This document shows, in pieces, positions 34,360-35,741 of a stretch of DNA of 35,741 nt (position 1 is the stretch's first letter; each line of letters begins with the position of its first letter). This stretch comes from Chitinophaga pinensis. GTDB lineage: Bacteria > Bacteroidota > Bacteroidia > B-17B0 > Aurantibacillaceae. The stretch is from contig CAMCZO010000023.1 in assembly GCA_945887955.1 (NCBI GenBank), forward strand, positions 1-35,741, given 5' to 3'. A program made the translations under genes and the position numbers. The notes beneath the pieces are model-generated. The model was not told the origin of the DNA and made no database searches. It saw nothing but the letters and a program-made list of their open reading frames with translations.

Positions 34360-35493
34360 ATGGTTAAACAAATTACTATTGCTCATGCCTTATATAATAA
34401 TAAGGAAAAAATATTTATAAATTTTAAATACGATTCTGCAACTATAGAATTAGTTAAGAAAATTGCCGATGCAAAATGGAGTCAAACTAATAAATGTTGG
34501 TATATAAGTTATTACGCAGAGGCCTTGCAGCTAATTAAAAACACTTTTGAGGCCAAAGGAATTACCATAAAATTATTAAACAAATATGAAGATGTAATTA
34601 ACCCAAGCCAAGTTAAAATTAAAAAACCTATTGATGCTTTACCTAATTTAAATATAGAACAAAAAGAAAAAATTAATCAATTTAACTATTGGTTAAAAAG
34701 CAAGCGCTATAGCGGAAGCACTATTGGAACTTATATGGATTCGATACAAACTTTTTTGAGATATTATTCAACTAAAAACCTGAGCGAAATCACAAATGAA
34801 GATTTAATAATTTTCAATAATGAATACATATTAGCCAACCATTATTCTGCCTCGTATCAAAATCAAATTGTTAATGCAGTAAAATTATTTTTTAGAAACA
34901 TTGAGAATAAACAATTACAGCCCGAATTAATTCACCGACCAAAAACCCAAAAACTATTACCTAATGTATTGAGTAAAGAAGAAATAAAATTAATATTGAA
35001 CGCACATAGCAACATAAAACATAAAGCCATGCTGAGTTTAATATATAGTTGTGGTTTAAGATGTGGAGAAATGTTACGATTAAAACCAGAACATATAGAT
35101 AGCAAACGAAATATTTTAATAATTAAACAATCAAAAGGAAGGAAAGACAGAATAACACCATTGAGTAATAAAATTATTTTAATGTTGCGAGACTATTATC
35201 ATTTACATAAACCAAAAGAATGGCTATTTGAAGGACAAAAACAAGGAGAGCCATATGATGAAAGAAGTTTACAAAATGTTCTTAAACAAGCCATAGGAAA
35301 ATGCCAAATTAAAAAACCAGTTAGTTTACATTGGTTGAGGCATAGTTATGCAACGCATTTATTAGAAAATGGAACAGATTTAAGATATATACAAGAAATA
35401 TTAGGACATAGTAGTAGTAAAACAACAGAAATCTATACACATGTGAGCACGAAAAATATCCAAAAAATCATTTCACCATTTGATTATTTATAA
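34360..35493 (+). CDS. Tyrosine recombinase/integrase with extra N-terminal HARP-like domain
   Basis: 377 residues. The catalytic set is complete: R234 (GLRCGE), K259 (QSKGRKDR), H324 and R327 (HWLRHSYATHLLENG), H350 (ILGHSS) and nucleophile Y359 (TTEIYTHV). A SAM-like core-binding domain at about 104-180 ('FNYWLKSKRYSGSTIGTYMDSIQTFLRYY') precedes it. Residues 1-75 are an added domain with 'IFINFKYDSATIELVKKI' and AKWSQTNKCWYISYY, resembling the HARP fold of SMARCAL1-type helicases and a Bacteroidota recombinase subgroup. It is the same direction as the palindromic region and the open frame that follow. Not XerC/XerD of chromosome dimer resolution, given the extra domain; it may belong to an integron-like or mobile element. 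Confidence 0.88.
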   Translation: MVKQITIAHALYNNKEKIFINFKYDSATIELVKKIADAKWSQTNKCWYISYYAEALQLIKNTFEAKGITIKLLNKYEDVINPSQVKIKKPIDALPNLNIEQKEKINQFNYWLKSKRYSGSTIGTYMDSIQTFLRYYSTKNLSEITNEDLIIFNNEYILANHYSASYQNQIVNAVKLFFRNIENKQLQPELIHRPKTQKLLPNVLSKEEIKLILNAHSNIKHKAMLSLIYSCGLRCGEMLRLKPEHIDSKRNILIIKQSKGRKDRITPLSNKIILMLRDYYHLHKPKEWLFEGQKQGEPYDERSLQNVLKQAIGKCQIKKPVSLHWLRHSYATHLLENGTDLRYIQEILGHSSSKTTEIYTHVSTKNIQKIISPFDYL

Positions 35494-35532
35494 AAAATGA
35501 TTAAATTCACTAAAATAAATATTAGCCAATTT

Positions 35533-35588
35533 ATGGCGGTTATTATACCCATATAGGTATTATACCCGCCATTTTATGGCGGGTATAA
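35533..35588. repeat. Nested palindromic element downstream of the recombinase
   Basis: A perfect hairpin has arms TTATACCCGCCAT (35560-35572) and ATGGCGGGTATAA (35576-35588) with loop TTT. Upstream, ATGGCGG occurs again at 35533-35539 and TTATACCC again at 35543-35550, so the same segments can form alternative pairs, for example 35533-35539 with CCGCCAT at 35566-35572. A smaller inverted repeat, ATACC-N6-GGTAT, is at 35545-35560. There is no T-run after the main hairpin, so a rho-independent terminator is unlikely. A single-stranded recombination site or attachment site for the neighbouring recombinase is a plausible reading. It lies 40 bases after the recombinase stop. Confidence 0.6.
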
Positions 35589-35628
35589 ACAAGTTATCGG
35601 GCAGCCTAAAACACGACACAGTAAATAA

Positions 35629-35741
35629 ATGACAGACTTCAAAACATATTACAGTTCAACATTTCGACAAGACATTAACCAGTTCTTTTCGACAATTCCA
35701 GATGATAGTAGGTTTCACGAAGACAAAGACAAAAAACAAAT
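35629..35741 (+). CDS. Start of an unidentified open reading frame, truncated by window end
   Basis: An ATG at 35629 opens 37 codons that continue beyond the window: MTDFKTYYSSTFRQDINQFF..., with DDSRFHEDKDKKQ at the edge. No family is recognised. Codon use is unlike the surrounding genes: GAC is preferred to GAT, AGG occurs, and TTC, CAG and CAC appear, whereas the rest of the window favours GAT, TTT and CAA. That points to a transferred gene. The position just downstream of the recombinase and palindrome makes a cassette gene possible, but a short fragment gives only weak statistics. Confidence 0.5.
   Translation, partial: MTDFKTYYSSTFRQDINQFFSTIPDDSRFHEDKDKKQ

Follow-up and report, generated by a model that had tools for sequence, protein, structure and literature searches.

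The window, the whole 35741-nucleotide stretch of DNA that was analysed, corresponds to contig C23 in a draft genome of 2.51 Mb (102 contigs, 93% complete); GC content along the window is 22-35% by kilobase. It stops 248 bases past the 3' end (35493) of a tyrosine recombinase gene, behind which lies the repeat-rich element under study. Contig C31 opens with the final 149 bases of the window, its first base being exactly G35593, and 35471-35603 recurs on contig C76 (99% identity over 133 bp) by a tRNA-Glu gene, with different sequence thereafter. In many genomes, draft contigs frequently end no more than about 100-300 bases from the recombinase stop; the probable cause is that variable arrays interrupt assembly. 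The features of the region, read as discussed below, are as follows.

34360-35493, plus strand: tyrosine recombinase gene, 377 aa, Xer/integron-integrase-like (sequence and structure model)
35479-35509, plus strand: promoter-like boxes TTTG (35479-35482) and TAAATTCA (35502-35509), 19 nt apart (motif match)
35508-35596, plus strand: putative attI, 77-bit match to covariance model R1, with this sequence among R1's 53 training members
35523-35529, no strand assigned: arm A1, TAGCCAA, the weakest arm (alignment and covariation, as for A2-A4)
35534-35539, plus strand: arm A2, TGGCGG, then TAT at 35541-35543
35566-35571, minus strand: arm A3, CCGCCA, with the mirrored ATA before it at 35562-35564; partner A2 or A4
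35577-35582, plus strand: arm A4, TGGCGG, then TATA at 35584-35587
35593-35594, plus strand: predicted crossover point G35593 / T35594 (G^TTATCGGG), from the C31 start and cassette junctions
35594-35741, plus strand: start of the putative first gene cassette, the rest lying on C31 up to an attC at C31:1522-1657

The hairpin element behind the recombinase gene

The initial annotation described two competing foldings built from short repeats, and the repeats are indeed confined to the element: within the window, ATGGCGG occurs only at 35533 and 35576, CCGCCAT only at 35566, TTATACCC only at 35543 and 35560, and GGGTATAA only at 35581. Both pairings are real. The tight hairpin at 35560-35588 has perfect 13-bp arms and a 3-nt loop, and the alternative pairing of 35533-35539 with 35566-35572 is part of a 20-nt, 85% complementary dyad at 35533-35572. 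The hairpin is well beyond chance, as the only perfect one in the window with an arm of at least 13, against a mean of 0.1 in 20 first-order Markov simulations of the window (0.0 for arms of at least 12 with a GC content of at least 0.45). When both strands of 35525-35600 were folded, as had been suggested, z-scores of -3.6 (plus) and -4.7 (minus) were obtained for RNA and of -4.4 (plus) and -5.0 (minus) for DNA, with 0 of 200 shuffles equally stable in each of the four folds. The two states are nearly tied, at -27.9 kcal/mol with pairs forced across the centre and -27.4 kcal/mol within the halves. Alternating arms with two mutually exclusive pairings at 35533-35588 are confirmed. The element extends beyond 35588 to the crossover at 35593, its family is conserved, and the hairpin arms are part of a four-arm set.

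In two sets of fetched recombinase loci, covariance model R1 finds the element at 85 of 100 and at 33 of 39, counts in which some loci overlap or are duplicates and which include the 53 training sequences; the element is present in relatives that carry the recombinase, where its absence had been named as a point against it. No attI match was obtained at 21 of the 139 fetched loci, some of which have little DNA downstream. Among 15 XerCD/paralogue control loci there was one match (L242:10-97), upstream of its recombinase; on this 3-kb contig the paralogous recombinase looks as if it were cargo. At four loci (L028, L029, L033 and L034), a gene that is Bro-N/ORF6N-like or HigB-like by eye sits between recombinase and attI, with about 660-945 nt from stop to crossover, and the attI and its promoter-like motif come after this interposed gene.

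From the relatives' loci, 100 distinct attIs were extracted. The search pattern was absent from two entries in one extraction and from 21 of 108 loci in another, and the invariance of TATA and AGTT among the extracted sites arises by construction, because the pattern contained both. A nearly gap-free alignment was made of 53 author-chosen attIs, leaving out 47. In its long fold, columns 17-42 pair with 51-76, and in its local folds, columns 17-22 pair with 28-33 and 60-65 with 71-76. Covariation over these 53 sequences was 0.486 for the long fold (shuffled 0.196, slid at most 0.151) and 0.554 for the local folds (shuffled 0.200, slid at most 0.166). The Watson-Crick share was highest between A2 and A3 (0.84), followed by A3-A4 (0.76), A1-A4 (0.60) and A1-A2 (0.57), the expected range being 0.39-0.43. 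Since arm A3 has two conserved partners, exclusive pairing is a trait of the family. TAT follows A2 and A4 and is mirrored 5' of A3 at identical spacing. The distance from the dyad centre to the crossover is 40-40.5 nt in 64 of the 100 attIs and within 2 nt of the median in 67, compared with 12 in shuffles.

A search elsewhere in the genome, also proposed earlier, placed the element not at many ordinary gene ends but at 7 attI loci only in this 2.5-Mb genome, and 7 loci were likewise found in a complete genome (G001). In G001, only 2 of the 7 adjoin a recombinase, and each of the five solitary ones is followed by attC-type matches or a cassette chain. In the window's own genome, attC-type sites lie 3' of the attIs on C23 (via C31), C76, C1 and C18, with a weak match on C44; no attC-type site or array was detected downstream of those on C3 and C35. 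Five of the six solitary attIs (C1, C3, C44, C18 and C35) carry a different arm type, and a search of the same genome for a second recombinase of the attI clade returned just XerC/D-like and weak matches. On C76 and at one G001 locus (L233), the solitary copy retains the recombinase gene's final bases and with them the promoter-like box in front of the attI.

Cassettes, attC sites and the recombinase

Downstream of the element, the unit on C31 begins GTTATCGGG and finishes CCCGATAAC...AAAACG^TTAGG, and that on C76 begins GTTATGGGC and finishes GCCCATAAC...AAACCG^TTAG; by their sequence, both are cassettes with attC sites. The C23 cassette contains one ORF of 180 aa and one of 306 aa, the latter Mrr-like (an Mrr-type nuclease cargo on C31), and the cargo genes of C76 are a Na+/H+ antiporter and a chloride channel. 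Across relatives, cassettes lie 3' of 34 of 44 testable attIs, compared with 9 of 564 control GTT sites, some of which may be cassette starts themselves. An attI was testable with at least 1.5 kb downstream, and a cassette was called from a start complementary to the attC R' over 8-9 bases; by this definition no cassette was detected at 10 of the 44. As many as 7 consecutive cassettes occur at one locus (L070).

A chain search located 73 distinct attC candidates, of which 38, picked mostly for similar length, were aligned with two sites of the window's own genome. In the attC stem, 17 of 17 pairs are altered on both sides, and covariation reaches 0.790 (shuffled 0.189, slid at most 0.091). An attC model trained on the present clade (R2) had no match on a class 1 region (L236); the present attCs may therefore differ from classical ones.

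The mapping of recombination junctions, which the initial annotation had called for, revealed natural junctions in relatives at the predicted base. In G001, one cassette of about 674 bp occurs at three loci with 98.9-99.7% identity, namely in the array of recombinase 1, as the leading cassette behind a solitary attI, and in one further array, and the flanking sequence switches at G^TT on both sides. The divergence between C23 and C76 is consistent with a G^TT junction and was counted as agreement. At a second pair of G001 loci, the attI and first cassette are common and identity stops 4 bases beyond the next G; this pair could alternatively be a segmental duplication. A Chryseobacterium plasmid carries a recombinase, an attI scoring 52 bits and attC sites with scores as high as 108 bits, and a group II intron maturase gene lies within its cassette array (L235:15738-17054). 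Two different arrays within one genome hold related gene sets with 77% identity (L022:1777-2605 and L021:8028-8853), including genes for ArsR-like regulators by eye.

The recombinase has no IntI-specific I2 region and carries an extra N-terminal domain. At the corresponding place it has 17 residues versus about 59 in 2A3V, a 44-residue stretch of IntI1 is missing, and the structure model has no helix there. The integron integrase 2A3V ranks first in a Foldseek search with this model and XerA next; by sequence, PDB 4a8e and 5hxy rank first. Profile scores fall below the cut-offs for TIGR02249 (197 bits, curated cut-off 265) and NF040815 (209.8 bits, cut-off 220). In a 34-row tree with several long branches, the attI-bearing clade is monophyletic (100/100) and apart from XerC/D, other Bacteroidota recombinases join it (97/92), and IntI is separate (99/97). 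On these sequence comparisons, an assignment to IntI by the usual definition is rejected. The N-terminal domain (34360-34587, about 75 aa) has a b-b-a-b-b-a-b order in the model; no Pfam entry matched it above cut-off, and weak DUF5710 similarity was seen in 4 of 18 members.

Homologues were found in 42 of 60 relatives (E <= 1e-40) and in 196 of 395 Bacteroidia genomes (E <= 1e-70), the latter count being an upper bound for the integron clade because this threshold admits paralogues without a visible attI. A scan of named genomes kept 80 loci, including Flavobacterium, Pedobacter, Algoriphagus and Cyclobacterium species. A sister group of recombinases with 37-39% identity (L248 and L252, in genomes G187 and G044) seemingly has GTT and a common cassette-like start downstream, and the other recombinase of G187 has an attC match at a distance of about 1 kb. 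The integron clade may thus extend further.

An integron reading and its rivals

Taken together, we read the element as an integron attI, with the recombinase gene immediately upstream and in the same orientation as the cassettes, a reading to which we give a probability of roughly 0.85. That 35508-35596 is an attI appears almost certain, and that the integron is run by an I2-less recombinase is very probable. Sequence comparison demonstrates the site, the boundaries of the cassettes, the architecture of attC, the exchange of a cassette between arrays in one complete genome and the absence of the IntI-specific region, and an integron-like working of the system is well supported. The recombinase would join attI to the attC of a cassette at G35593^T35594; that it is this recombinase that acts, we infer. 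On a wider and more tentative view, Bacteroidota might possess a second type of integron with an origin of its own, in which an I2-less Xer-like recombinase exchanges attC cassettes at a four-arm, possibly folded attI, with several scattered attI platforms on one chromosome and cassettes moving between arrays in trans.

As for what the arms do, the most likely answer is that they serve as double-stranded half-sites of the recombinase, an idea given somewhat better than even odds and placed ahead of folded recognition, its main rival. A1-A4 would be alternating copies of one half-site, made up of a variable 6-bp X', one base and TAT, so that A1+A2 and A3+A4 would approximate two tandem dif-like palindromes beside the core, comparable to the arrangement of DR1/DR2 in attI1. 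We propose that this alternation of half-site copies would give rise to the mutually exclusive hairpins. Between arm sequence and the catalytic domain there is a weak correlation (r 0.29; partial 0.33, a value reached in 0 of 500 permutations), lower than one would expect from sequence-specific binding. With the N-terminal domain no correlation was found (r 0.05; partial -0.16), and binding of the arms by that domain is unsupported.

Alternatively, though this seems less likely, the recombinase might recognise an extruded hairpin or cruciform by its shape, much as IntI does with attC, the exclusive folds being alternative states. Such recognition would suit arms that vary freely in sequence as pairing persists and that track the recombinase so poorly. 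It would also suit the long hairpin, whose energy reaches z < -2 in 79 of the 100 attIs (20 mononucleotide shuffles per site), in a comparison tilted to the long fold because the local fold used the long fold's best centre; a few attIs pair through the spacer too. However, all four arms are tied together, and a simple long hairpin needs neither A1=A3 nor A2=A4; the TAT by A4 is unpaired in the long fold; and the fixed spacing fits double-stranded phasing equally well. There is also no strand preference, the folding energy being lower on the plus strand in 46 and on the minus strand in 54 of 100 attIs (p = 0.77), and IntI itself recognises attI as a double strand by sequence, according to PMC8946536. 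The earlier proposal of a single-stranded recombination substrate is borne out as regards recombination, with cassette insertion at the predicted base in relatives; its single-stranded part is neither favoured nor disfavoured by the folding, in which both strands do equally well.

A regulatory RNA switch, the other function first suggested, is improbable. It would be an attenuator-like leader (1-2/3-4 versus 2-3) that controls cassette mRNA transcribed from the recombinase gene's 3' end, and the classic 1-2-3-4 order of the arms would accommodate it, as would the promoter-like motif immediately upstream. In relatives, TAnnTTT[GA] precedes 68 of 100 attIs versus 4.8 in shuffles, and in 60 of 100 there is in addition a TTG upstream versus 0.5 in shuffles. 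The match is weak in the window itself, where the TTTG box lies within the closing codons of the recombinase gene, and strong in relatives, when judged against the Bacteroidota promoter consensus. Given this strong enrichment, the element is probably transcribed too. Against a switch, arm mismatches in a strand-blind alignment are balanced (GT 70, AC 80), without a G-U excess. GT exceeds AC only in A3-A4 (22 versus 6), with 12 of these GT from a single column pair, 65-71, and 49 of 53 attIs have T in column 71; the tRNA control of this test, with only 21 cells, was too small for use. No T-run follows the element, as the initial annotation noted, and an Rfam search gave no match above the gathering score. 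Because the mismatches are balanced and the two strands fold with similar energies, the constraint on the arms looks to act at the DNA level.

Two further explanations carry less weight still. The neighbouring recombinase might be a bystander to cassettes moved by another enzyme, such as a canonical IntI that went unassembled; the incomplete draft and the five solitary attIs of the other arm type, for which no matching recombinase was found, leave some room for this. It is nonetheless very improbable, as attI adjoins this recombinase clade at most fetched loci and TIGR02249 exceeded its cut-off in none of 10 genomes, including one that is complete as a single contig. An ordinary intrinsic terminator or a chance palindrome, as a GC-rich hairpin shortly past a stop codon might suggest, is refuted by the missing T-run, the low copy number of seven, the cassette arrays that most copies head and the co-occurrence with the recombinase in relatives.

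Relation to known recombination systems

Lambda-type integrases combine an extra N-terminal domain with extra arm-type sites beside the core. The present system resembles them in having such a domain and extra sites by the core, and differs in that its arms are uncorrelated with the N-terminal domain. XerA and XerC-D with dif are the closest families to the recombinase by sequence, and A3-A4 shares with dif an 11-7-11 layout. Unlike Xer/dif, the recombinase here would serve cassette arrays, the crossover falls outside the palindrome, and the clade is apart from XerC/D.

PMC7790495 and PMC9668308 describe the additional domain or I2 helix near patch III as necessary for and unique to IntI. In the former, gain of the I2 helix is said to have given integron integrases single-strand recombination and cassette capture, the helix being absent from all other proteins and lacking known intermediates. 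An earlier intI survey demanded that domain or patch, as stated in PMC2426708, and IntegronFinder 2.0 recorded one complete integron in Bacteroidetes proper, in Salinibacter, according to PMC9024848. An open-access literature search, whose scope did not extend to preprints and most subscription papers, returned no report for Bacteroidota of I2-less integrons or of several attIs per genome. If the present reading is true, a large class of integrons has been overlooked, and the orphan attC arrays of Bacteroidota might not lack a recombinase. The mechanism or origin of attC recombination in the absence of I2 would be open to direct testing in harmless laboratory organisms, and a system that captures genes with an enzyme apparently lacking a part thought essential could help to show how integrons evolved. 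The dispersed attI copies would represent a new genome layout for cassette systems.

Similar to IntI integrons, both class 1 and sedentary chromosomal ones, the present system has an attI by a tyrosine recombinase gene, a G^TT crossover, a promoter-like motif near attI, and tandem cassettes with imperfect-palindrome attC sites. The attI core TATAAACAAG^TTA is similar to that of delta-attI1, given as AAACAAAG^TTRRRY in PMC12901181, and extra repeats lie upstream of the core, as do DR1/DR2 in attI1 (PMC8946536 and PMC12901181). In contrast to IntI integrons, the attI is located past the 3' end of the recombinase gene with the cassettes co-directional, it has four arms and occurs several times per genome, and the attC sites are matched by a model of their own. 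The recombinase also differs, having an extra N-terminal domain in a separate clade without the IntI-specific region; such a clade, devoid of the I2 region and distinct from IntI, appears to be novel.
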